The position numbers and the translations under genes are program-made. From Amycolatopsis coloradensis (GTDB taxonomy: Bacteria > Actinomycetota > Actinomycetes > Mycobacteriales > Pseudonocardiaceae): DNA of 64,000 bases. The notes beneath the pieces were generated by a model. The model searched no databases and was not told the origin of the DNA. It saw only the letters and a list, made by a program, of their open reading frames with translations. Of this stretch, positions 5,118 through 59,454 are shown one piece after another. The DNA lies in the NCBI RefSeq assembly GCF_001953865.1, contig NZ_MQUQ01000012.1, positions 434,001-498,000 on the forward strand, written 5' to 3'. Positions within the stretch are counted from its first letter, which is position 1, and the number at the start of each line of letters is the position of its first letter.

Positions 5118-6194
5118 ATGAGGGTTCTCAAGCGTTTCCCGGTCAGGCTGAGCGACCGCCCGGACCATGAGCTCGTCGGCGTGATCCGGATGCCGGAACT
5201 GACGGTCAGCCCGATGCGGTCGATCCTGAAGCGGATCATCGGCGCGATGCTCGCCCTGCTGGCGACCGTGCTGATCGTCTACCTCGACCGGGACGGCTAT
5301 CGCGACGCCAACGGCGACGGGCTCAGCCTTCTCGACAGCCTCTATTACGCGACCGTGTCGCTGTCGACCACCGGGTACGGTGACATCGCGCCCGCGACGT
5401 CGTCCGCGCGGCTGGTCAACGTCCTGGTGATCACCCCGCTGCGGGTGCTCTTCCTCATCGTCCTGGTCGGTACCACACTCGAAGTGCTCACCGAGCGCTC
5501 CCGCCAGGCTTTCAAGATCCAAAAGTGGAGGACGAAGGTGCGTGACCACACGGTCGTCGTCGGTTTCGGCACGAAGGGCCGGTCGGCGGTCAACGCGCTG
5601 CTCGGGGACGAGAACGTCGAACCCGACCACATCGTCGTCGTCGACACCGACCAGCAGGCCCTCGAAGCGGCCACTTCACTCGGCCTGGTGACCGTGCACG
5701 GCTCGGCCACCCGCGCCGACGTCCTGCGGGTCGCCGGCGTGCAGCGGGCCAAGGCCGTCGTCGTCGCCCCGAACCGGGACGACACCGCGGTGCTGGTCAC
5801 GCTGACCGCTCGCGAGCTGGCACCGAAGGCACACATCGTGGCGTCGGTGCGGGAGGCGGAGAACGTCCACCTGCTCAAGCAGTCGGGCGCGAACCAGGTC
5901 GTGGTGTCGAGCGAGACCGCCGGGCGCCTGCTCGGCATGGCGACGTCGACACCGCTGGTGGTCGACATGGTCGAGGACCTGCTCACCCCCGAGTCCGGCC
6001 TCGCGATCGCCGAACGCCCGGTGGAGCCGTCGGAAGAGGGCGGTTCGCCGCGGCATCTGCCGGACATCGTGCTGGGTGTCGTCCGCGACGGCGTCCTGTA
6101 CCGCGTGGACGCCCCGCAGGCGGACGCGATCGAGCCGGGCGACAAGCTGCTGTACATCCGGAAGGTGACGTCCGCGGAGACGATCGAGCGGTAG
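5118..6194 (+). CDS. Potassium channel with RCK/TrkA-N regulatory domain
   Basis: The protein has 358 residues. Two transmembrane helices (about 37-55 and 100-120) flank a pore loop with the K+ selectivity filter STTGYGD near residue 83. A cytoplasmic RCK/TrkA-N domain follows, starting at VVVGFGTKGRS, a Rossmann nucleotide-binding loop, and ends with a TrkA-C-like module. Known relatives form tetrameric K+ channels gated by Ca2+ or nucleotides bound to the RCK ring. The ATG at 5118 gives a short basic N-terminus before the first helix. Mycobacteria also carry a TrkA-type channel gene beside adnAB, which supports old synteny. The stop codon abuts a fragment of repeat family PAL-3. Confidence 0.88.
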   Translation: MRVLKRFPVRLSDRPDHELVGVIRMPELTVSPMRSILKRIIGAMLALLATVLIVYLDRDGYRDANGDGLSLLDSLYYATVSLSTTGYGDIAPATSSARLVNVLVITPLRVLFLIVLVGTTLEVLTERSRQAFKIQKWRTKVRDHTVVVGFGTKGRSAVNALLGDENVEPDHIVVVDTDQQALEAATSLGLVTVHGSATRADVLRVAGVQRAKAVVVAPNRDDTAVLVTLTARELAPKAHIVASVREAENVHLLKQSGANQVVVSSETAGRLLGMATSTPLVVDMVEDLLTPESGLAIAERPVEPSEEGGSPRHLPDIVLGVVRDGVLYRVDAPQADAIEPGDKLLYIRKVTSAETIER

Positions 6195-24281: not shown

Positions 24282-24340
24282 AGAAGTACGTGAAGGCCCC
24301 CTTCATTGCGCTAGGCGCAATGAAGGGGGCCTTCACGTAC
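24282..24340. repeat. PAL-2 inverted repeat, copy 1
   Basis: Perfect arms of 28 bases (24282-24309 and 24313-24340) flank a 3-base centre, with arm core GTGAAGGCCCCCTTCATTGC. It starts 4 bases after the nudC stop and probably ends the M16/nudC transcript, although no T tract follows. Three related copies are at 31392-31450, 47608-47662 and 58199-58253. Confidence 0.88.
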
Positions 24341-47203: not shown

Positions 47204-47605
47204 CGGACGAGTCGGCAGGGCGGCCGCGAGCCGGGAGACCGGTTCGAGGAAAGTCCGGACTCCACAGGGCAGGGTGGTTGTTAACGGCAACCCGGGGCGA
47301 CCCGCGGGACAGTGCCACAGAAAACAGACCGCCTCCGCGCGCTTCGCGGGCGGAGGTAAGGGTGAAACGGTGGTGTAAGAGACCACCAGCGTCCTGGGTG
47401 ACCAGGACGGCTAGGTAAACCCCACCCGGAGCAAGGCCAAGAGGGAGCCCCGAGGCTCCTGCGCAGACGACCGAGGGCTGCCCGCCCGAGTCTGCGGGTA
47501 GGCCGCTCGAGCCCGCCGGCGACGGCGGGCCTAGATGGATGGCCGCCACTCGCTCAGCCGCGAGGCGAGGCGAGGACAGGATCCGGCTTACACGCCGGCT
47601 CGTCC
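47204..47605 (+). ncRNA. rnpB: RNase P RNA (type A)
   Basis: The sequence shows the conserved RNase P core: GAGGAAAGTCCGGACTCC near the 5' end, ACAGTGCCACAGAAAACAG, AAGGGTGAAACGGTGGTG then TAAGAG, TAGGTAAACCCC, and GATGGATGGCCGCC with ACAGGATCCGGCTTA at the 3' end. The ends pair as helix P1 (GACGAGTCGG with CCGGCTCGTC), which fixes the limits to within a few bases and gives about 400 nucleotides, the normal type A length. A TAGGAT box at 47191-47196 is a suitable -10 element. The RNA is the catalytic part of the tRNA 5'-processing enzyme. A PAL-2 palindrome starts 3 bases after it and probably terminates it. Confidence 0.96.
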
Positions 47606-47607
47606 CG

Positions 47608-49146: not shown

Positions 49147-49413
49147 ATGATGACCTTGACCACCCTCGACACGCTGGCCGCCGGCGAGCTCGGCACCGGC
49201 AACGTCCGCACCTGGCTGATCGACAACATCATCCCCCTGGTGCTGCTGGCCGTCGCACTTCTGCTGCTGTGGCTGGGTGGCGGCAAGGGGGACAACGCCG
49301 GTGTCATGCGCCGTCTCGCCGGTGTCGTGATCGCGCTGGCGATCATCGGCCTCGCGGTGAGTGGTGCCGGAGTCAACGTGGGCCAGTGGATCGCCGGCCT
49401 CTTCACGGGCTGA
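49147..49413 (+). CDS. Small two-helix membrane protein (VirB2/TrbC-like position)
   Basis: The 88-residue protein has two hydrophobic helices (about 28-44 and 59-76) separated by a Gly/Lys-rich loop (GGGKGDNAGVMRR). The size and topology recall VirB2/TrbC pilins, but there is no sequence signature, so the assignment rests on its place in front of a VirB4-like gene. ATG codons at 49147 and 49150 are both possible; GGGAG lies 8-11 bases upstream. Confidence 0.65.
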   Translation: MMTLTTLDTLAAGELGTGNVRTWLIDNIIPLVLLAVALLLLWLGGGKGDNAGVMRRLAGVVIALAIIGLAVSGAGVNVGQWIAGLFTG

Positions 49414-49426
49414 GGCAGGGCCCGCG

Positions 49427-49903
49427 TTGCGTATCCGCACCGATGACGAGGTTTACCGGGTCGATGCCGTGTGGCTCGGCCCGCCGAAAGCGACTTTTCC
49501 CTGGAGGGCCCGCTACGTCGCGTGGCTCGTCGGTATCCCGGTCTTCCTGCTCGTGCTCACCGCCGAACGGTGGGCGGGCTGGAGCTTCGGGTTCTTCTCG
49601 ACCGCCTGGGCTTTCGTCGCCACAATTGTGATCACGAGATTGATCACGTCCAAGATCAGCCACGAGCGCCCGCTGGGCGCGGTGGCCGGGATGGCGGCGA
49701 AAGAGCTCAACTCACCTAGAGAACGGACCACGGGTACGGGCGGCGCGGCCAGCGCTTCCCGCGTCCGGGTGCGGGCGACCCGCCCGTTGCCGAAGCACCG
49801 CAGGAGACGGCAGTACCAGCAACACGGCTACGGCGGCGGCGCCGGAGCTCAGGGAACACCACGAGCGCGTCGGAGCCGCCCTGCGGCTCGGGCCGGGAGG
49901 TAG
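49427..49903 (+). CDS. Two-helix membrane protein, VirB3/PrgI-like by context
   Basis: The 158-residue protein has an N-terminal LRIRTDDEVYRVDAVWLG segment. Two close helices (about 28-44 and 50-66: YVAWLVGIPVFLLVL and FFSTAWAFVATIVIT) precede a basic, Gln/Gly-rich cytoplasmic tail. VirB3 and PrgI-type proteins of type IV systems have the same helix pair and lie next to VirB4, as here. The start is a TTG 13 bases after the previous stop; the frame open from 49361 overlaps the previous gene. Confidence 0.6.
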   Translation: MRIRTDDEVYRVDAVWLGPPKATFPWRARYVAWLVGIPVFLLVLTAERWAGWSFGFFSTAWAFVATIVITRLITSKISHERPLGAVAGMAAKELNSPRERTTGTGGAASASRVRVRATRPLPKHRRRRQYQQHGYGGGAGAQGTPRARRSRPAARAGR

Positions 49904-49906
49904 TCG

Positions 49907-52864
49907 TTGTTCGGTCGCGGCGGAAGCCGAGGAAAACGTGATCGTGACCTGCAGCAAGGGGCCTGGAGCCAGCCCCAGCAGGTCCGCTCCGCGCAGCCCA
50001 AGAAGGCCGGCAAGGGAAGGCGGCTGCCCGGTGAGGCGGCGATACCTGCCTATACCCCGTCCATCGCGGCGCGAAGCATCGACGGGCACCTGTTACGTAC
50101 CGGTTATGAGGTCTACGCCTGGTACCGGCTCGCGCCGCAGCGCTGGTCGTTCCGGTCGGACTCGCAGCGCCGCGACCTGATCGCGGCCATCGCGGGCCAG
50201 TACGCGGAATTCCAGGGCCGCTGGCTGCACCTGCGCGTGACCAACCGGCCGTACCCGATCCGCATGTGGGCCGAGGCCCACGTGCACAACGCCGTCGGCC
50301 GTCCCCAGGACGTCCGAGGGGCGCTCTCCTTCGACGACTATCTCATCGGTGAGCAACAGCAGCTCATGGGCCGCTCGATGGCCGAGAAAGAGGTCTATCT
50401 CGGCATCCAGGTGCAGACCCGGCGGATGATCGACCGCGCGGTCGAGAGCGCCGCGCCGGTGCTGCGCAAGATCCTGCCGGAGGCCGTCGACGCCGAACTG
50501 GCCGCGCTCGACTCCGAGGTCGAGCACCTCGACCAGGTGATCGGCTCGGCCGGGCTCGAGGGCCGCCCGGTGCACGCCGAAGAGATGTCCTGGCTGATGC
50601 ACCGCTCGTGCTCGCTGGGCCTGCCCGCGCCACGCAACATGCCCGCGGTGCCCGGCGCCGCCTGGGAGCCCGAAGACCTCGCCAGTTTCACCGACGCGGC
50701 GGACTTCCACGCCGAGCCGTACGCGCCGACGGTCACCGTGCGCGGCCGCACCGGGTCGAACGCCGGGGTCTCGCGGCATCTCGCCGTCCTCACCGTCGGC
50801 CAGATGCACGGTCTTCAGATCCCCGAGGTCGACGACCCGTGGATCCAGCACGCGGACCGGCTGCCCGCCGCGGTCGAGGTGTCCGCGCGGATCTACGTCC
50901 GGCGACCGGAAGAGGTCGCCGGTGAGCTGCAGCGCCAGATGAACAAGGTGCGTTCGCAGGTCAAGCACTACACCGACGAGCACGAACTGGAGCCGCCGCA
51001 GTCGCTGGCGCGCCAGGCGGGCCGGGTGCTGGAGATCGACGACGAGATGACGTCGGGCTTCACCGCGCTGGCCACCCGTGTGCGCTCCTGGTGGCGCCTG
51101 GCGGTCTCCGGGCCGACAGAGCGTGACGCGCTGCGCCTCGCTCAGCAGCTTCTCGACCTCTACAAGCCGAAGATCGCCGTCGAGCACCCTGAGGCTCAGT
51201 ACGCGCTGGCCCGGGAGTTCATCCCCGGCGAGCCGCTGGCCTCGGCGGCGTACATGCGCCGCGGTTCGGTCGTGTGGGCGTCCTCGTCGGTGCCGACGGC
51301 GACGGCCGAGGTGGGCGACCGCCGCGGCATCCTGCTCGGCGAGACGGTGACCGCGACCCGGCGCCCGGTGGCGTGGGATCCGTGGATGGCGCAGGAGATC
51401 CGCGACGGTTCGGGCCTGACCGCGATGGTCGCCGGTCTCGGTGGCGGCAAGTCGTTCCTCGGTGGCGGCATCGTCTACAAGACGCTCCGCGCGGGCGCGC
51501 ACTGGACGATCCTCGACCCGTCGGGACCGCTGTCGCGCCTGTGCGACCTGCCCGAACTGCGGCCGTACGCGCGGAACATCAACCTGCTCAACGCGCAGCC
51601 CGGCATCCTCAACCCGTACCGGGTGGTCGCCGAGCCGCAGATCGAGCATTTCATGGACGAGGACGACCCCGAGCGCTCCTGGCGGCGGGAGAAGGCCCTC
51701 GCGGGCGCGACCCGGCGACGGCTCGTACTCGACGTCCTCACCGGTGTCCTGCCGTACGAGGTCTCGCGGATGGCGCAGACCCGGATCGTGCTGCTGCGCG
51801 CCGTCCGCGCGGTCGGCGGCCGGTTCGAAGCCGACCCCGGCCAGGTCATCGACGCGCTGCGCCGCGACTCCAGCGAGCACCACGAGCACGCCGTCGTCGT
51901 CGCGGACTTCCTCGACGAGATGCGCGAGCGGATGGCGCTGCTCATCCCGGAGACCGACGCGGACCCGTACGCCGAGACCCGCGACGACCGGATGACCGTG
52001 CTGACCATGGCGGGGCTGACCCTGCCCAAGGACGGCGTCCCGCGCGAGTACTGGACGGACGCGGAATCCCTCGGCGTCGAGATGCTGAACCTCGCCGCGT
52101 GGCTGACGCAGCGGTCGGTGTACGAGAAGCCGAAGGAACTGCGCAAGGGCGTCTGGATCGACGAGGCGTTCTTCCTCTCCGAGGTCCCGACCGGTCGCGT
52201 GCTGATGAACCGTTTCGCACGTGACTCGCGTAAGTGGAACGTCCGGGTGCTGCTGTCCTCGCAGATCCCCGCGGACTTCCTGAAGATCCAGGGTTTCGTG
52301 GCGCTGCTGGACTCGGTGTTCGTCGGCCGCCTCGACGACGACGACGCCCAGGCCGACGCGCTGCGCCTGCTCAAGGTCCCGGTCGGCGTCGGCTACGAAC
52401 AGGTCGTCGCGGCGCTGGGCCGCCGTCCCGGCTCGTCACGCGATCTCCAGCGGGACGTCGAGCCGCGCCAGTTCATCTTCGGTGACGGTGCCGGTGGCGT
52501 GGAGCGGATCCGCGTCGACTTCTCCGGACCGCACCTGGAACACCTGCGCCGGGTCATGGACACCACGCCGGGTTCGCCCGACGCCAAGCCTTCCCGGCGG
52601 GGCAACGAACTCGCGGTCCCGGCGGAGAAGCAGTTCGTGGCGTCGCCGCCGGAGGAAGACGACTTCGAACTCGAGGAAGACCTCGAACTCGCGGCCGAAC
52701 TCGAAGTCGGCCTCACCGACGAGCAGATGCTCGGCGCGCCCGACCCGCTGGCCGCCGAGACGGGCGAAGTGCACGGCGCTGTCCAAAATGGACACATCAC
52801 GAACGGGGAAAAGGGCGAGCACGCGCGCGCCGGCAAGGGTGGCACCGGCAGGGATGCCGCATGA
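49907..52864 (+). CDS. VirB4/TraC-like type IV secretion ATPase
   Basis: The 985-residue protein has an N-terminal half typical of VirB4-like proteins (YAWYRLAPQRWSFRSDSQRR, the YLGIQVQ region and LQIPEVDDP). A RecA-type motor domain begins near residue 500. Walker A reads AGLGGGKS (lysine near 515), lacking the first glycine of the usual loop. Walker B is KGVWIDEAFF near residue 750, and a later motif is VLLSSQIPADFLKIQG. The last 100 residues are acidic. VirB4 ATPases energise assembly and substrate transfer at the inner membrane. The TTG start has GGGAGG 6 bases upstream. It overlaps the next gene by ATGA. Confidence 0.8.
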   Translation: MFGRGGSRGKRDRDLQQGAWSQPQQVRSAQPKKAGKGRRLPGEAAIPAYTPSIAARSIDGHLLRTGYEVYAWYRLAPQRWSFRSDSQRRDLIAAIAGQYAEFQGRWLHLRVTNRPYPIRMWAEAHVHNAVGRPQDVRGALSFDDYLIGEQQQLMGRSMAEKEVYLGIQVQTRRMIDRAVESAAPVLRKILPEAVDAELAALDSEVEHLDQVIGSAGLEGRPVHAEEMSWLMHRSCSLGLPAPRNMPAVPGAAWEPEDLASFTDAADFHAEPYAPTVTVRGRTGSNAGVSRHLAVLTVGQMHGLQIPEVDDPWIQHADRLPAAVEVSARIYVRRPEEVAGELQRQMNKVRSQVKHYTDEHELEPPQSLARQAGRVLEIDDEMTSGFTALATRVRSWWRLAVSGPTERDALRLAQQLLDLYKPKIAVEHPEAQYALAREFIPGEPLASAAYMRRGSVVWASSSVPTATAEVGDRRGILLGETVTATRRPVAWDPWMAQEIRDGSGLTAMVAGLGGGKSFLGGGIVYKTLRAGAHWTILDPSGPLSRLCDLPELRPYARNINLLNAQPGILNPYRVVAEPQIEHFMDEDDPERSWRREKALAGATRRRLVLDVLTGVLPYEVSRMAQTRIVLLRAVRAVGGRFEADPGQVIDALRRDSSEHHEHAVVVADFLDEMRERMALLIPETDADPYAETRDDRMTVLTMAGLTLPKDGVPREYWTDAESLGVEMLNLAAWLTQRSVYEKPKELRKGVWIDEAFFLSEVPTGRVLMNRFARDSRKWNVRVLLSSQIPADFLKIQGFVALLDSVFVGRLDDDDAQADALRLLKVPVGVGYEQVVAALGRRPGSSRDLQRDVEPRQFIFGDGAGGVERIRVDFSGPHLEHLRRVMDTTPGSPDAKPSRRGNELAVPAEKQFVASPPEEDDFELEEDLELAAELEVGLTDEQMLGAPDPLAAETGEVHGAVQNGHITNGEKGEHARAGKGGTGRDAA

Positions 52865-55029
52865 ACACGGTGATCACGCTGGCGTGCGTGCTCGCGTTCG
52901 CCGCCGGCTGGCACGCGCTGCGCCGCCGTCTCAAAGAGGGGCCGCGACCGGGTAAAACCATGCCCAGCCGCCGCGCGACCATGTTCGTCGTCATGCTGAT
53001 CCTCGGCTTGCAGGCGGTGGCGACCGCTCCGGCGGCGTCGGCCGCGGCCTGTGGCGAAGCGCCGAACCCGGAACGGCCCGGCGCGGGCATGGTCGGCGCC
53101 CTCGACCCGCCCGCGACCGCTCGCGGTGAAGGCGGCAGCCCGTACAACGTCTACGGGTACGCGGGCCACGTCTGGGACACGTTCGAAACCGACTGCGGCC
53201 CGCTGGCCGGGATCACCTCGCCCAACTCCACGATCGACACCTGGGCTGGCAACCAGCTCTTCAACATCGGCAAGAACCTCGTCGGCGCCACGAACTCGCT
53301 GCACTACACCGTGTTGCAGGGCAGCCTGCTCAGCCCGCTGTACAACGCCGTCAAGGCCGGGGCCGAGAAGGTCTACAACAACATCTACGCCCAGTTGTTC
53401 GGCCTGGCCGCGCTGATCATGTCGATCATGCTGTTCCGCAACATCTGGCGGGGCGACCTCGCGGCGGTCAGCAAACGGGCGCTGTACGGGCTGGCCGCGG
53501 TCTGGCTGGCGGCGTCTTCGTTGGCACTGCTGCGTTTCCTCGATCCGATCGACAACGCGATCGTGCAGACCACGACCAACATCCAGGCAGGCTTCATCGA
53601 CGAGCCCAAGACGCCGCCGCCGTCCCAGCCGCCGCCGCCCTCGGCGCAACCGTGCCAGGCGACGCCGGAGGCCGTGGCCGCCCGCCAGCCATGGGACCGC
53701 GTCCCGACCGAACTGCATTGCCGGGTCGTCTACGACAACTGGCTCCGTGGGGAGTTCGGCAGTCCGGACTCGCCGCAGGCACTGCAATACGGTCCGCCGC
53801 TGCTGGACGCCCGCGCCTTCACCTGGGGCCAGATCCAGCAGGGCGGCGACGCCGACACCGCGCTGGTGGATTCCAAGAAGGCCGCGTTCAAGGACATCTC
53901 GACCAAACTCGGTCCGGCGACCGGGTACTTCACCGGTGAGGACGGCAGCCGCGTCGGCGCCGGTTTCCTTTCCCTCGGCCAGGGAATCTTCTACTCGCTG
54001 TTCCAGTTGCTGGCCAAGGCCACGGTGCTGCTCGCGCAGGTGCTGATCAGGATCTTCGTCCTGACGGCTCCGCTGATCGGCCTGATCGCGCTACTCCAGC
54101 CGCAGATCATGCAGCGCATTCTCAAGGTCGTCGGCGCGGTCGCCTTCAACCTCATGGTGCTTTCCGTGCTGGCCGGCGTGCACACGCTCTTGCTCGAGGC
54201 GATCTTCACCGCCGGGAACTCGCTCTCCCTGCTGACGAAGATGGCGCTGGCGGCAATCATCACCGTGTTGCTGTTCATGATCGGCCGCCCCGTGCGGCGG
54301 CTGTGGCAGATGGTGGAGATGTCCGTCGGCATGGTCGGCGGCGCGGTGCCCTCGCCCCGCGGCGGGCTCTTCTCCCGCTTCCGCAAGAAGAACAACGAGC
54401 AGACCCCGCAGGACGCGTTCTGGCAGAACGTCCGCGACACCGACGACGTCGTCGACGGCGACCTCCGTGGTCCCGTCGGCGCGACCGTCGGCGGCGGGCG
54501 ATTCCGGCCGGAGGCGACGATCTTCGCCAGTTCCCAGCGGCTCGACAACGGTTCCGGCGCGATCCGGCCCGCCGCGGCCTGGTCCGGAGCGCCCTGGCCG
54601 GGCGCGGTCGGCAGTGGTGGTGGCGGCATGCCCGCGCTGCCCGCCGGTGGTGGCGGAGGCGTTCCGGTGTTCGGCCAGTACAACCCGTCCGCGGGCATCC
54701 CCGGCGACTCGATGTTCACCTCGGGTGGGCGGAGCCCTGTCCAGATACCGAGCCGCCGCGTCGACACGTCGCCGGTCGCCGACCGGCGCTGGAGCGACGA
54801 ACCGGAGCCGGTCGTGGTGCCGTCGCGGATGAACTCCGCCGGTGGCGGCTACGCCACTCCCGACCATTCGGGCGTCGTACCGGTGCAAGCAGGCCCGTCC
54901 ACACCTCGTCCCCGCCGCGTCGATCCCGAAGTCGTCGCGGGCAAGCAGGTCTTCGTGGTGTACCGGCCTTCGCGCGGGCTCGAGGTCCGAGAGGACTTCC
55001 GGGACACCGACCACGCAGTGGGCCGGTGA
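52861..55029 (+). CDS. Polytopic membrane protein, VirB6/TrbL-like
   Basis: The 722-residue protein has one N-terminal helix and a second at about 40-60 (FVVMLILGLQAVATAP). A periplasmic-type segment with cysteines follows, then several helices between residues 180 and 480 (LFGLAALIMSIMLF, LYGLAAVWLAASSLALL, VLIRIFVLTAPLIGLIALL, LAAIITVLLFMIG). The long Gly/Pro/Arg-rich C-terminal tail (about 500-722) is predicted cytoplasmic. The helix arrangement and the place after VirB4 match VirB6/TrbL channel components. Family assignment is by architecture, without a diagnostic motif. Confidence 0.68.
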   Translation: MNTVITLACVLAFAAGWHALRRRLKEGPRPGKTMPSRRATMFVVMLILGLQAVATAPAASAAACGEAPNPERPGAGMVGALDPPATARGEGGSPYNVYGYAGHVWDTFETDCGPLAGITSPNSTIDTWAGNQLFNIGKNLVGATNSLHYTVLQGSLLSPLYNAVKAGAEKVYNNIYAQLFGLAALIMSIMLFRNIWRGDLAAVSKRALYGLAAVWLAASSLALLRFLDPIDNAIVQTTTNIQAGFIDEPKTPPPSQPPPPSAQPCQATPEAVAARQPWDRVPTELHCRVVYDNWLRGEFGSPDSPQALQYGPPLLDARAFTWGQIQQGGDADTALVDSKKAAFKDISTKLGPATGYFTGEDGSRVGAGFLSLGQGIFYSLFQLLAKATVLLAQVLIRIFVLTAPLIGLIALLQPQIMQRILKVVGAVAFNLMVLSVLAGVHTLLLEAIFTAGNSLSLLTKMALAAIITVLLFMIGRPVRRLWQMVEMSVGMVGGAVPSPRGGLFSRFRKKNNEQTPQDAFWQNVRDTDDVVDGDLRGPVGATVGGGRFRPEATIFASSQRLDNGSGAIRPAAAWSGAPWPGAVGSGGGGMPALPAGGGGGVPVFGQYNPSAGIPGDSMFTSGGRSPVQIPSRRVDTSPVADRRWSDEPEPVVVPSRMNSAGGGYATPDHSGVVPVQAGPSTPRPRRVDPEVVAGKQVFVVYRPSRGLEVREDFRDTDHAVGR

Positions 55030-55032
55030 CCC

Positions 55033-55629
55033 ATGCCGATCCGGACGAATCGCGGGCGTACCGCGGTCTATCGCAGGCTGTGGGGGTGGCCGCTGCGCTC
55101 ACCCCGCCACCTCATCGGCACGCTGGTGATCCTCGCGGTGGCGCTCACCGCGGTGGGCATCCTGCTGCCCAAGGCCATCGGAAAACCGGGGCAGACGGCC
55201 GCCGGGCCGGGTTCTTCGGCGACCAGCACCTCACGGCCGGGCGTCGCGGCGCCGGTGACCGTGACGTCGACGCTGCCGCCGAGGCTGACCACCCAGCCGC
55301 CGCCGTCGTCCGCACCACCTGACCAGAGCGGTGTCCGGGTCGCCAAGGAGTGGGTGACGGCATGGGCGAACCATCCCGACGGTACGACGACCGAGCAGTG
55401 GCTGAACGGCTTACGGCCGTACACCACCGAGGAATACCTGGCCGGGGAAATGACGACGGTGGATCCCGCGAACATCACCGCCACGAAGGTGACCGGGGAG
55501 CCGCAGGTCGTGTCGTCCCTCACCGGATCGATGGAGGTGGATGTCCCGACGGACGGGCCCAGGGTCCGGGTCACCGTCGCCAAGCTGAACTTCGGGTGGC
55601 GGGTCACCAAGTTCACGCAAGCGGGCTGA
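55033..55629 (+). CDS. Single-pass protein with NTF2-like domain, VirB8/TcpC-like position
   Basis: The 198-residue protein has a basic cytoplasmic start, one helix (about 29-46, LIGTLVILAVALTAVGIL) and a Ser/Thr/Pro linker. The C-terminal domain of about 95 residues (VRVAKEWVTAWANHPDGTTT ... RVRVTVAKLNFGWRVTKF) is consistent with the NTF2-like fold of VirB8 and TcpC. It is only 3 bases from the VirB6-like gene and 4 bases from the wall hydrolase. The role as periplasmic scaffold is inferred. Confidence 0.62.
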   Translation: MPIRTNRGRTAVYRRLWGWPLRSPRHLIGTLVILAVALTAVGILLPKAIGKPGQTAAGPGSSATSTSRPGVAAPVTVTSTLPPRLTTQPPPSSAPPDQSGVRVAKEWVTAWANHPDGTTTEQWLNGLRPYTTEEYLAGEMTTVDPANITATKVTGEPQVVSSLTGSMEVDVPTDGPRVRVTVAKLNFGWRVTKFTQAG

Positions 55630-55633
55630 TCCG

Positions 55634-56632
55634 ATGAAGATCGGGATCATCGTCGGCGTGCTGATAGCCGCGGTCTTCGCCGCGGTGGTCACCACGAACA
55701 CGGTCACCGAGGTGGTGACCGAGCATATGGAGGCGCAGGCGGGCGGCGTCGTCAAGACCTCCTGTGACGCGTCGATCGGGCCGACCCTGCCCGGGCAGGC
55801 CGATCACGGTTCTTCGGACATCGACAAACTCGACGAGGAACAGCGGGGGATCGTCGCGCTGATCATCTCGATCGGCAAGCAGCGGACCCTGTCGCCGCGC
55901 GCGTGGCAGGTGGCGATCCAGGCCGGGATGACCGAGTCCAAGCTGCGGAACCTGACCTACGGCGATCGCGACTCGCTCGGCATCTTCCAGATGCGGCCCT
56001 CGATGGGCTGGGGCACCGTCGCGCAGGTCACCGACCCGCCGTATCAGGTCAACAAGTTCTTCGACGTGCTGCTCGCGGTGCCGGACTGGGAGAACATGCG
56101 TCCCGGTGACGCGGCCCAGCGGGTGGAACGGTCCGGTTTCCCCGACCGCTACCACAACTGGGAGCCGATGGCGGCGCTCCTCGTGCAGAACGAGGGCCAG
56201 ATCGTCGACGTCGTCGGCTGTGGGACGAGCGTGGGCAGCGTGGTGCCGCCGAGCCAGGCCGCGGCACAGGCCATCAAGTTCGCCCTCGGCGAGCAGGGCA
56301 AGCCGTACATCTGGGGCGCCACCGGGCCGAATTCCTACGACTGCTCCGGGCTGATGCTGCGGGCATACGAGTCGGCCGGGATCATCATCCCGCGGGTTTC
56401 GCGGGACCAGTACAAGGGCGGCGCGATGCTGCCGGTCCGCCAGGCGCAGCCGGGTGACCTGCTGTTCCTCGCCACCGTCCCGTCGAACCCGGCGACCATC
56501 CACCACGTGATGATGTACCTGGGTGACGGCAAGATCGTCGAGGCGCAGCAGACCGGGGTCCCGGTGCACATCCGCGACTTCTCCTTCGACGAGGCCGAAG
56601 TGGTCGCGCAGGCGGTCCGTCCTGGCGTTTAG
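55634..56632 (+). CDS. Bifunctional wall hydrolase: lytic transglycosylase-like plus NlpC/P60
   Basis: The 332-residue protein has an N-terminal signal or anchor helix (MKIGIIVGVLIAAVFAAVVT). A lysozyme-like domain (AIQAGMTESKLRNLTYGDRD then SLGIFQMRPSMGWG; catalytic E near 101) is followed by a C40 peptidase domain with DCSGLMLRAYESAG (C near 236) and HHVMMYLGDGKIVEA (H near 290). Conjugation systems of Gram-positive bacteria use exactly this kind of two-domain VirB1-like enzyme to open peptidoglycan. Its presence strongly supports an envelope-spanning machine. Confidence 0.87.
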   Translation: MKIGIIVGVLIAAVFAAVVTTNTVTEVVTEHMEAQAGGVVKTSCDASIGPTLPGQADHGSSDIDKLDEEQRGIVALIISIGKQRTLSPRAWQVAIQAGMTESKLRNLTYGDRDSLGIFQMRPSMGWGTVAQVTDPPYQVNKFFDVLLAVPDWENMRPGDAAQRVERSGFPDRYHNWEPMAALLVQNEGQIVDVVGCGTSVGSVVPPSQAAAQAIKFALGEQGKPYIWGATGPNSYDCSGLMLRAYESAGIIIPRVSRDQYKGGAMLPVRQAQPGDLLFLATVPSNPATIHHVMMYLGDGKIVEAQQTGVPVHIRDFSFDEAEVVAQAVRPGV

Positions 56633-56734
56633 CATGGTGAAAGCGTGGTTTCGCGACCGCGGGACCATCGGATTCACCCGAAGTGGCGGCCTGTCCACCG
56701 GCAAGCGGCCGCACACTGGCAGAGGATGAAGCAC

Positions 56735-57916
56735 GTGGCACGGAAATTCGGAAGGCGAGGCAAGCCCGCGGCGGCGCACGGCCCGGAGGTCGATCCCCGC
56801 GATCTTTTCGGTACTCCGCAGCCCGCGCGGCAGGCCGCGAGGCCGGCGTCGAGCACGCCGCTGGCCGACCAGCTGAACCAGGGCTGGCCGGGCGTCGACC
56901 CCGGTTACGTGGTGTTGCCGCGTTCGCTGGCCGAAGGGATGTCGCTGCCCTGGCAGCAGCAGATGGCCGCCCTGCTGGCCCAGTTCCACCACGAGAACGC
57001 CCATCTGGCCTGGCCGATCTACCGCGTCGTCCCTTCGCGGTACGAAAAGCTCGTTGATCTTGACGAGGAGCAGCTGGCGGAGGCAGGCTACCTGGTCGAG
57101 ATGGACACCGAAGGCGAGATGATCTACCGCGAGCGCAGCGGCCGGAAGATCGATGACCCGGCGAACACCACGGTGCTCGTGTCCTGCCTCGACCCGATCC
57201 CGAAGCCAGTGCAGCGTCAAGCGCCTCCGCCGCCTTCGCAGGCCGCGCCGCCCGTGACCGGGCAGCCGCCGCGAGCCCCGGCGCCGATGAACATCGGACC
57301 GGCCCCGGTGTGGCGCACGGTCACCCCGCCCGCCGGTCCGCCCGCGTCGCCGGTGCCGGGTGGGACCTCGCCACCTGCCCCTCCTCAGGCAGGCCCGCCC
57401 GCCGCTGCCCCGGTCGCGCCTCCGCCGGTGCGGCCTCAGCCGGTTCAAGCTCCTCCCGCGCAGGCTCCGGCCGCGCAGACTCCGACCGCGCAGACGCCGC
57501 CTCCGGCGCAGGCTCCGGCGGCGCAGGCTCCGGCGCAGACGCCGCCTCCGGCGGTCAGCGCGCCTCCGGCCACGCCGGAAACGCAGTCCGCCGTGCCGTC
57601 CCAGGCCGAACCGCAGCCCCAGGCCGAACCGCAGCCGGATCCGCCGCAGGCCGCGAGCCCGCCGATGCCGGTCACCCCACCGGCGACCCCGCCGCCAGGA
57701 CCCTTGCCGCAGCCGGTGTCACCCGGTTCACCACCGCAGGGCATCCCCGTCACGCCGGAGCTTGCCACCCCGCCGCGCGGCATCCCGGTGCACCGCGGGT
57801 GGTTCGACGAAATGGGCGAAAACGTGCCCGAAAGCTCAAAACTGGATCCGCCCGAGAACGCCGAGTTCGGCCCGACCGGCGATCCCACGGAGATCCCCTA
57901 TCGCTACCGCAAGTGA
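56735..57916 (+). CDS. Proline-rich protein of the type IV-like operon
   Basis: This 393-residue protein has no assignable domain. A basic N-terminus (VARKFGRRGK) leads to a folded-looking segment of about 120 residues (YVVLPRSLAEGMSLPWQQQM then AALLAQFHHENAHLAWPIYR, RYEKLVDLDEEQLAEAGYLV). About 200 residues of Pro/Ala/Gln repeats follow, then a short conserved-looking end (IPVHRGWFDEMGENVPESS). The GTG at 56735 has AGAGGA 8 bases upstream; an ATG at 56726 is the alternative. It may be a cytoplasmic adaptor of the export machine; that is only a guess from position. Confidence 0.6.
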   Translation: MARKFGRRGKPAAAHGPEVDPRDLFGTPQPARQAARPASSTPLADQLNQGWPGVDPGYVVLPRSLAEGMSLPWQQQMAALLAQFHHENAHLAWPIYRVVPSRYEKLVDLDEEQLAEAGYLVEMDTEGEMIYRERSGRKIDDPANTTVLVSCLDPIPKPVQRQAPPPPSQAAPPVTGQPPRAPAPMNIGPAPVWRTVTPPAGPPASPVPGGTSPPAPPQAGPPAAAPVAPPPVRPQPVQAPPAQAPAAQTPTAQTPPPAQAPAAQAPAQTPPPAVSAPPATPETQSAVPSQAEPQPQAEPQPDPPQAASPPMPVTPPATPPPGPLPQPVSPGSPPQGIPVTPELATPPRGIPVHRGWFDEMGENVPESSKLDPPENAEFGPTGDPTEIPYRYRK

Positions 57917-57950: not shown

Positions 57951-58148
57951 ATGTCGAGCGACCCGAACCCGGATCAGGGCTGGTACTTCAACACCAAGAC
58001 GAATCAGGTCGAGCACCTGGAACGCGGCCGGAGCGTCGACCTCCTCGGCCCGTACCCGGACGAGGCGACGGCCCGGCGCGCACTGGACATCGCCAAGGAA
58101 CGCACCCGTCAGGCCGACGCCGAGGACGCCAAGTGGAACGGTGACTGA
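57951..58148 (+). CDS. Small SPOR-like conserved protein
   Basis: The 65-residue protein GWYFNTKTNQVEHLERGRSV followed by DLLGPYPDEATARRALDIAK resembles a short SPOR-type fold (the GPYPDEATARRAL helix is typical). It is widespread as a single small gene in actinobacteria. It has an acidic C-terminus and no signal peptide. It is 34 bases after the proline-rich gene on the same strand. Function unknown. Confidence 0.65.
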   Translation: MSSDPNPDQGWYFNTKTNQVEHLERGRSVDLLGPYPDEATARRALDIAKERTRQADAEDAKWNGD

Positions 58149-58488: not shown

Positions 58489-59454
58489 TCAGGCGTCCTG
58501 CCCGGCCAGCACCGGTCCCAGCACGAACCCCGGATCCACCTGGGCGGTGAGGTCTTCCCCCGCTCGCCCGCTGCCCCACGCCCGCGCGTTGCGCAGGTGG
58601 AACTCGACGCCCTGACGCTGATAGCGAGCCCAGTCCCGCCGCTCGGCGTCGACGGTCGTGAGCATCGAGCCCAGCGTCCCGAGGTTGTGCGCCTCGAGTT
58701 CGCCGATCGGGCGCGCGCGGCCGCGTTCGGCGGCGCGGACATGCCGCGAGTTCTCCATCCAGCCCAGCAGGGCGTCGCCGACCTCGTCGCGCAGGAACTC
58801 GATGTCCTCGTCCTCGGTCACCTTGTTCCCCACGACGACCAGCCGCACCCCGAAGTCCCGCGCGTAGTCGGCGTACTGCCGGTACACGCCGACGCTGCGG
58901 ACGGTCGGCTCGCACACCAGGAACGTCACATCGAACCGCGTGAACAGCCCGGACGCGAACGCGTCGGCGCCGGCGGTCATGTCCATGACCACGTATTCGC
59001 CCGCGTCGTCGACCATGTGGTTCAGCAGCAGTTCCGCCGCGCCGACCTTCGAGTGGTAGCAGGCGACACCGAGGTCGTCCTCGTCGAACTGCCCGGTGAC
59101 GCCGAGCCGCACGCCGCCGAAGTCGCGGAAACAGGCCTGGAAAATCGGGTTGTCCTCGAACGGCCGGACCAGCCGCGACCCGCGACCCGGCGGGGTCGTC
59201 TTGATCATCGAGGCCGCGTCGGCGATCCGCGGGTTGTCGCCGCGCAGGTAGTCCTTGATCAGGCCCATGTTGTCGCCCAGCGTCGGCCACGCGATGGCCT
59301 CTTCCTCGCTCGCGCCGAGCGCGACGGCGAGATGCTGGTTGATGTCCGCGTCGATCGCCAGTACCGGTTTCCCGGCCCCGGCCAGGTACGCGGTGAACAG
59401 CGACGCCAGCGTGGTCTTGCCGCTGCCGCCCTTCCCGACGAACGCGATCTTCAC
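58489..59454 (-). CDS. CooC/ParA-type ATPase (deviant Walker A)
   Basis: The 321-residue SIMIBI-class ATPase has the deviant Walker A GKGGSGKTT at residues 7-15, with the signature lysine in KGG. The segment VLAIDADINQHLAVALG and the switch-II motif VVMDMTAGADAFASG are near residue 158. CooC-like members insert nickel into carbon monoxide dehydrogenase; other relatives are ParA/MinD-like positioning factors. No CODH or parB gene is near, so its partner is unknown. It is convergent to the type IV-like operon and divergent from the RNB gene. Confidence 0.82.
   Translation of the reverse strand: MKIAFVGKGGSGKTTLASLFTAYLAGAGKPVLAIDADINQHLAVALGASEEEAIAWPTLGDNMGLIKDYLRGDNPRIADAASMIKTTPPGRGSRLVRPFEDNPIFQACFRDFGGVRLGVTGQFDEDDLGVACYHSKVGAAELLLNHMVDDAGEYVVMDMTAGADAFASGLFTRFDVTFLVCEPTVRSVGVYRQYADYARDFGVRLVVVGNKVTEDEDIEFLRDEVGDALLGWMENSRHVRAAERGRARPIGELEAHNLGTLGSMLTTVDAERRDWARYQRQGVEFHLRNARAWGSGRAGEDLTAQVDPGFVLGPVLAGQDA

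Follow-up and report, generated by a model that had tools for sequence, protein, structure and literature searches.

A type IV secretion-like operon without linked relaxase or coupling-protein genes is conserved at a chromosomal locus of the Pseudonocardiaceae

We analysed a 64,000-nucleotide stretch of the Amycolatopsis coloradensis chromosome (contig NZ_MQUQ01000012.1, positions 434,001 to 498,000; hereafter the window), in which an initial annotation, made from the letters alone, had noticed an operon resembling a type IV secretion system (T4SS). Positions 49147-57916 carry, on the + strand, seven co-oriented genes, here called A to G, which neither overlap nor stand apart by more than 14 bp and whose frames are all open. 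Coordinates, frames and profile searches agreed with the description of these genes as T4SS-like, and the locus encodes a minimal type IV secretion machine of the Gram-positive kind, composed as follows (aa, amino acids; TM, transmembrane):

A, 49147-49413, + strand: 88 aa, two TM segments; candidate pilin or channel subunit, VirB2/TcpD-like by layout only
B, 49427-49903, + strand: 158 aa, two TM segments; VirB3/PrgI/TcpE-like
C, 49907-52864, + strand: 985-aa VirB4-type ATPase
D, 52861-55029, + strand: 722-aa polytopic VirB6-like protein with a disordered C-terminal tail
E, 55033-55629, + strand: 198 aa, VirB8-like, with a conserved cytoplasmic N-terminus, one TM segment, a proline-rich linker and an NTF2-like domain
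F, 55634-56632, + strand: 332 aa, VirB1-like wall hydrolase, with an N-terminal TM segment or signal, a lysozyme/SLT-type domain and an NlpC/P60 endopeptidase domain
G, 56645-57916, + strand: 423 aa, soluble, with a conserved domain of about 120 aa and a genus-specific proline-rich tail; candidate cytosolic adaptor

A and B are, as had been proposed, small membrane proteins; each has two hydrophobic segments, and in size and layout they suit VirB2 and VirB3 equivalents. Profile matches for both were weak: A matched NCBIfam TcpD at E 0.12 and CD3337/EF1877 at E 0.005, and Pfam TcpE was matched by one of 20 aligned B sequences (E 0.013). Homologues of B point to the TTG at 49427 as its most likely start, since their own first residue aligns there. 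At E ≤ 1, Pfam gave nothing for A, D, E or G, or for the longer frame first given for B. The assignment of C as a VirB4-like ATPase held firmly, with matches to Pfam AAA_10 (E 4e-19) and NCBIfam TcpF (E 1e-17), and the GKS of Walker A and the DE of Walker B were invariant in 15/15 alignment rows, two plasmid rows included. A sequence search of VirB4 against solved structures gave no relative, only two chance-level matches (E 0.16 and 0.2). In four family genomes (loci L229-L232; genomes G066, G112, G069 and G028), VirB4 contains an in-frame insertion of about 392-397 aa located exactly between the K and the S of Walker A, with HN at its end before the S; the single insertion tested matched LAGLIDADG_3 (E 4e-7). 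By these sequence marks, the insertion reads as an intein in the T4SS motor of the four genomes.

The proposed analogies of D to VirB6 and E to VirB8, for which structure prediction had been suggested as a check, came through it. TrbL/VirB6 (PF04610) was matched by one of 24 aligned D sequences (E 2e-7), and the three top Foldseek matches of the AlphaFold model of D (mean predicted local distance difference test score 65) were all R388 TrwI/VirB6 (E 0.075-0.5, match probability 0.93-0.99). The predicted structure of E matched VirB8, with a TcpC/TraM-like fold. The models thus support a VirB6-like D and a VirB8-like E with an NTF2-like domain. The named loci described below supplied 76 E homologues and 76 long D homologues, of which 58 and 27, respectively, entered the structure alignments; the further alignments (A1-A4 and A8) were hand-picked subsets. 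F is indeed a two-domain wall hydrolase of the VirB1 kind: it matched NLPC_P60 (E 1e-22), and its residues 71-181 matched a solved muramidase chain (E 2e-9). E101 and Q119 (SLT-type) and H291 were invariant in 31/31 rows. The second domain of F varied among homologues (NlpC/P60 in 23/31, M23 in 9/31 and VanY in 1/31), and the first-domain residues were kept. The long proline-rich protein of the initial annotation is G, which has no TM segment, contains 23% proline and gave no Pfam or NCBIfam match; its conserved core spans approximately residues 70-190, and the long proline-rich tail is confined to some genera.

VirB4 was detected in 150/150 sampled Pseudonocardiaceae genomes, representing 46/46 genera, and the patchy distribution typical of conjugative elements was not seen. 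Family-wide conservation of the operon excludes chance as its explanation. According to the initial annotation, support for a housekeeping system would come from finding the set conserved in a single chromosomal context and lacking relaxase genes. Across 20 Pseudonocardiaceae genera, A to F occurred in order in 20/20 and G was found in 18 by tblastn and in one more (L085) by gene calling; flanking genes shared with the window placed the operon at the same chromosomal site in 18/20. The two remaining loci (L088 and L089) occupy a different site, and the VirB4 tree places them as sister to all other members of the family clade. In a whole-collection VirB4 scan, 528 of 548 candidates proved to be relatives, and the best 80 of these, our named loci, held A in 79, B in 78, C in 80, D in 80, E in 76, F in 76 and G in 75. 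Three named loci (L161, L163 and L210) end at contig edges. L182 had no match to B and L226 none to G; L227 (Saccharomonospora iraqiensis) carries A to D followed directly by the next conserved neighbour, without E to G, which may be a deletion or an assembly error. The best 80 are mostly titled Lentzea, Saccharothrix, Kutzneria, Saccharopolyspora, Prauserella, Amycolatopsis and similar. Lentzea was checked and belongs to the Pseudonocardiaceae, as do Saccharothrix, Kutzneria, Saccharopolyspora and Prauserella. One record is titled Rhodococcus rhodnii and is presumed to be mislabelled.

VirB4 matches were also found in 126/298 genomes of an order-level search and in 42/296 of a class-level search, both counts including Pseudonocardiaceae. 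Among families in the order search, f13 (5 genomes) and f11 (2 genomes) recurred (families are given by our own handles), and the others had few or none. Two further families carried VirB4 nearly throughout: f15 in 93/101 genomes (84/89 good ones) and f31 in 98/100 (87/87 good ones). The f15 genus g228 had no VirB4 match in 3/3 sampled genomes (G685, G714 and G732), a natural loss. A protein in f31 is 88% identical to one in Nonomuraea gerenzanensis. We tentatively take f15 to be Micromonosporaceae, from the GTDB layout and PMC4182475. The tested flanking genes of the window were found in none of five f15 and five f31 loci. Three of the five f15 loci (L092, L095 and L096) share one site, beside genes that resemble folate genes by eye. 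In five f31 clusters and in L105 (L105-L110 together), a related gene lies upstream of VirB4, and the one tested (L107) encodes a TcpC-domain protein (PF12642, E 2e-11); judging from this domain, these clusters may include two VirB8-type proteins. An f31-type VirB4 (71-74% identity) was also seen on secondary replicons of 91-145 kb in Nocardiopsis.

A quick maximum-likelihood tree used 56 VirB4 rows, selected out of the 120 loci at which VirB4 was matched. The 25 Pseudonocardiaceae rows formed one clade (Shimodaira-Hasegawa-like approximate likelihood ratio test, SH-aLRT, 99) with the plasmid sequences outside it, and f31 and f15 each formed one clade (SH-aLRT 99 and 100, respectively); the outside branches include several long ones, on whose placement the program issued a warning. 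Identity to the window VirB4 was approximately 39% in f15 and 28% in f31. The ratio of nonsynonymous to synonymous substitution rates (dN/dS) of VirB4 was 0.10-0.15 in four comparisons, compared with 0.24-0.30 for the neighbouring RNB gene and 0.26-0.29 for the RNase H gene (two comparisons each) and 0.30-0.44 for the SCO6745-type gene (three). VirB4 is under strong purifying selection. The ratios were higher for D, E and F (0.29-0.59) and intermediate for A, B and G (0.06-0.33). Base composition is native across the window, as had been noted. Together, the single site in 18/20 genera, the single VirB4 clade, the purifying selection and the presence of VirB4 in every genome sampled support a vertically inherited, resident chromosomal system of the Pseudonocardiaceae; a resident and possibly vertically inherited machine had been suggested in the initial annotation. 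A degrading remnant of an integrated conjugative element would account for homologous genes on plasmids and for the missing linked relaxase and coupling protein; against it stand seven open frames, the shared site, the low VirB4 dN/dS, invariant catalytic residues and the failure to find att-like repeats, and conservation contradicts it at the family scale, which leaves this history highly improbable.

No relaxase or coupling protein had been visible at the locus, and searches extended this. Relaxase PF03432 was found in no frame of the window genome and in 5/60 family genomes, and TrwC relaxase PF08751 likewise in none and in 24/60; in these same 60 genomes, at least one of the two was present in 26 and neither in 34. 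A candidate type IV coupling protein (T4CP) of plasmid pSM17C, so named by its record and without a Pfam match at E 0.01, matched weakly in 2/60 family genomes (E 7e-6 and 2e-4) and not in the window genome. PF01580 (FtsK_SpoIIIE) gave 15 matches in nine open frames of the window genome, none of them inside the window. We also considered an FtsK/SpoIIIE protein beside an f15 locus as a coupling protein. It has a strong homologue in 46/60 family genomes and an absent or weak one (E > 1e-11) in 14, and in the window genome the homologue lies on another contig, among genes that look kinase/phosphatase-like by eye; this protein does not track the operon and is therefore not a required partner. A positive control for reading coupling and mobilisation genes from a neighbourhood came from a second, mobile-looking VirB4 module in the family (L234:1311-12335; genome G147, contig 15; VirB4 73% identical). 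Within approximately 8 kb of it are genes for a Replic_Relax protein (E 6e-41) and for a coupling protein of the TrwB_AAD_bind type (E 6e-10), and the contig also has a transposase-like gene.

Attachment (att) sites were sought as direct repeats of at least 18 nt around the locus, and only dispersed palindromes or weak, chance-like pairs were found; shorter att cores are not excluded by this search. The flanking repeats were not taken as att sites because they are members of dispersed palindrome families with 8 and 7 window matches, and they were not found (≤ 1 mismatch) in the relative L233, where the sequence compared reaches no further than about 1.5 kb upstream of VirB4. Family 1 matches at 6193, 13602, 36046, 38635, 38875, 47758, 58397 and 58448 and family 2 at 24289, 24322, 31397, 47611, 47644, 58202 and 58235, compared with 0.01-0.05 matches expected. 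An RNase P RNA gene (47208-47606) lies just upstream of the operon, and ARAGORN found no tRNA in the 64-kb window. The features of a self-transmissible element that were sought, a relaxase of the two families, a linked coupling protein and a patchy distribution, were thus all absent. The locus instead combines chromosomal VirB4 and T4SS genes with no nearby relaxase of PF03432 or PF08751, which is the state that defines a "MOBless T4SS".

The relaxase counts bear on whether the operon is a public transfer machine, that is, a host T4SS used in trans by mobilizable elements that bring their own relaxase and coupling protein, or in inter-hyphal exchange of chromosomal DNA. Many family genomes do carry one of the two relaxases, mostly TrwC, and actinobacteria have many relaxases and surprisingly few T4SSs (Guglielmini et al., 2011, PMC3158045). 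The plasmid modules described next, most of which adjoin coupling-type ATPases, also speak for it. However, 34/60 genomes have neither relaxase family, yet VirB4 is kept in 150/150, and strong purifying selection where no element is present is hard to square with service to parasites; we regard such a role as rather unlikely. A broader version, in which the core T4SS of three actinomycete families serves relaxase-bearing elements and mycelial chromosomal exchange in addition to its own cargo, seems more doubtful still; if true, it would account for the many relaxases in actinobacteria that lack a T4SS of their own.

VirB4 relatives on plasmids were found in 94 records, with 40-43% identity in the seven best rows. 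Modules on plasmids of Streptomyces sp. SM17 (pSM17C), Streptomyces sp. 891-h and Pseudonocardia sp. DSM 110487 (p1) resemble the operon in gene order: two small proteins, VirB4, a protein of 780-850 aa, a VirB8-size protein and a C40/NlpC peptidase. Three plasmid stretches (L112, L113 and L115) have the same six-gene order as the operon, and in L112, L114 and L115 an FtsK-type or T4CP-annotated ATPase lies adjacent or within 2 kb. Unlike the operon, these modules are plasmid-borne and three of four have a coupling-type ATPase nearby. A search with the G domain gave no match in the four plasmid records. With a coupling-type ATPase beside the same genes in three of four plasmid relatives, the operon looks like a domesticated relaxase-less T4SS. 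The simplest history is the capture and fixation of a conjugation module followed by loss of its linked mobilisation genes, a direction that we infer.

We propose that this former conjugation module became a minimal Gram-positive-type T4SS resident in the chromosome. VirB4 (C), together with B and D, would form the membrane motor and platform, and A may line the channel or build a short filament. E would cross and stiffen the wall, and F would cut peptidoglycan. The machine alone would move no plasmid DNA, because a relaxase and a coupling protein are not linked to the operon. By analogy with known systems, we give about an even chance to a domesticated T4SS by which at least one host protein would be exported across the thick cell wall, G perhaps serving as receptor or adaptor in place of the coupling protein. 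Protein export is favoured because of the prior set by known VirD4-less and MOBless T4SSs: it has been argued that most MOBless T4SSs serve protein secretion (PMC3158045), and the VirD4-less T4SSs include Ptl, with two-step protein export, that of Brucella, with export by unclear steps, and ComB, with DNA uptake (PMC12857230). The VirD4-less Trw system of Bartonella has been proposed to form adhesive pili (PMC12857230). As a separate candidate, anti-phage defence was rejected, since 0/8 proteins matched PADLOC at E 0.001.

Two of these precedents suggest other functions. A resident DNA-uptake machine would work like ComB of Helicobacter pylori: the channel, with VirB4 as its motor, would draw outside DNA across the wall, and a second channel, in the membrane, would bring it into the cell. 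ComB has VirB4, VirB6 and VirB8 but neither VirD4 nor VirB11 (PMC12857230). The window genome likewise lacks PF03432 and PF08751, and near-universality suits a housekeeping role. Nevertheless, no DNA receptor or competence-like gene was found among the scanned neighbours (competence genes elsewhere were not searched). The Pseudonocardiaceae are not known for general natural competence, and we consider uptake improbable. The Trw precedent (PMC12857230) would fit a surface filament or a wall-remodelling machine without exported cargo, acting in adhesion, at the septum or in shaping the hyphal envelope, and so would an F with two wall-cutting domains, the second of which is exchanged while the residues of the first are kept. 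However, A is short and not recognisable as a pilin by profile, no adhesin was recognised in the operon, and wall cutting alone needs no VirB4 motor; such a machine seems to us unlikely as well.

Several observations weigh against protein export by a domesticated machine with G as adaptor. Known VirD4-less T4SSs also include DNA-uptake and adhesive systems (PMC12857230). Across the family, the search used PF03432 and PF08751 for relaxases and a single query each for a plasmid T4CP and for FtsK; nine frames with an FtsK/SpoIIIE domain lie elsewhere in the window genome, and one such unlinked FtsK-type ATPase could act as a coupling protein in trans. The plasmid stretch L113 has no coupling-type gene annotated beside its module. 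G has no recognisable domain; its distant relatives (28-33% identity) occur on Streptomyces, Kitasatospora and Nonomuraea plasmids, with no T4SS gene annotated beside them in the two stretches examined. Constraint on D, E and F does not exceed that on the remaining neighbours, and the 65-aa and ParA-like neighbours are about as constrained as VirB4 (dN/dS 0.11-0.21).

The first of these two neighbours, a 65-aa gene at 57951-58148, follows the operon in 17/20 genera. It was rejected as an eighth part of the machine: it was not seen in L088 or L089, where the machine is at another site, nor in L072, whose stretch ends approximately 8.6 kb past the VirB4 start. The second, a ParA/CooC-like ATPase gene (58489-59454, - strand), lies beside the operon in 11/80 named loci. 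A different protein within an f31 T4SS cluster (L107:5137-7371) gave a sub-threshold CbiA/MinD match (E 3e-4).

The conjugation systems of pCW3 (Tcp), pIP501 (Tra) and Tn916 are known from Gram-positive bacteria. Like them, the operon has a TcpF-like VirB4, a predicted TcpC/TraM-like VirB8 fold and a two-domain VirB1-like hydrolase; unlike in them, no linked relaxase, TcpA/VirD4 or att repeats were found at the operon. The kind of machine is already known, and so is the relaxase-less state. The operon shares with MOBless T4SSs (Guglielmini et al., 2011, PMC3158045) a chromosomal VirB4-type system without a linked relaxase and differs from them in also being without a linked T4CP and in being a family-wide core locus. 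The nearest lineage-wide monoderm analogue is the T4SS of Patescibacteria (PMC12102498), which is likewise monoderm-type, chromosomal, lineage-wide and mostly without a relaxase. It belongs to another phylum and lifestyle, and its VirD4 homologues are common, mostly far from virB4, whereas in the family of the operon the single plasmid-type T4CP tested matched weakly in 2/60 genomes. In Micromonospora lupini, a single virB4-annotated gene (Milup_08_42651) lies amid genes of unknown function (PMC4182475) and is perhaps the relative seen in f15; it was noted as one gene, and the accessible text gives no account of a system, of its distribution or of what it does. Surveys of 2011 found few actinobacterial T4SSs, DNA being moved mainly by single FtsK-like proteins (PMC3158045, PMC3218068), and PMC12691689 deals with other export routes.

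With the one M. lupini gene excepted, no description of the system turned up in the full-text literature searched, which leaves most subscription journals outside its coverage; a search aimed at the VirB4 intein returned no paper on it by title. The literature searches were aimed directly at core-locus status and the intein only. As far as they show, the status as a core locus of the Pseudonocardiaceae and of two further families is new, as are the lack of a linked coupling protein at the window locus, gene G, the domain exchange in F and the putative VirB4 P-loop inteins. The operon occurs in harmless soil genera, of which some are open to genetic manipulation, and the Pseudonocardiaceae are known for their antibiotic producers. 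If fixed in the chromosome of this large family and, as separate clades, in two more, a wall-crossing T4SS would give them a core route of secretion or uptake outside the accounts consulted. Two questions can thereby be put to the test, namely what these bacteria transport across their wall and how a conjugation machine finds a new use after losing its relaxase and coupling protein.

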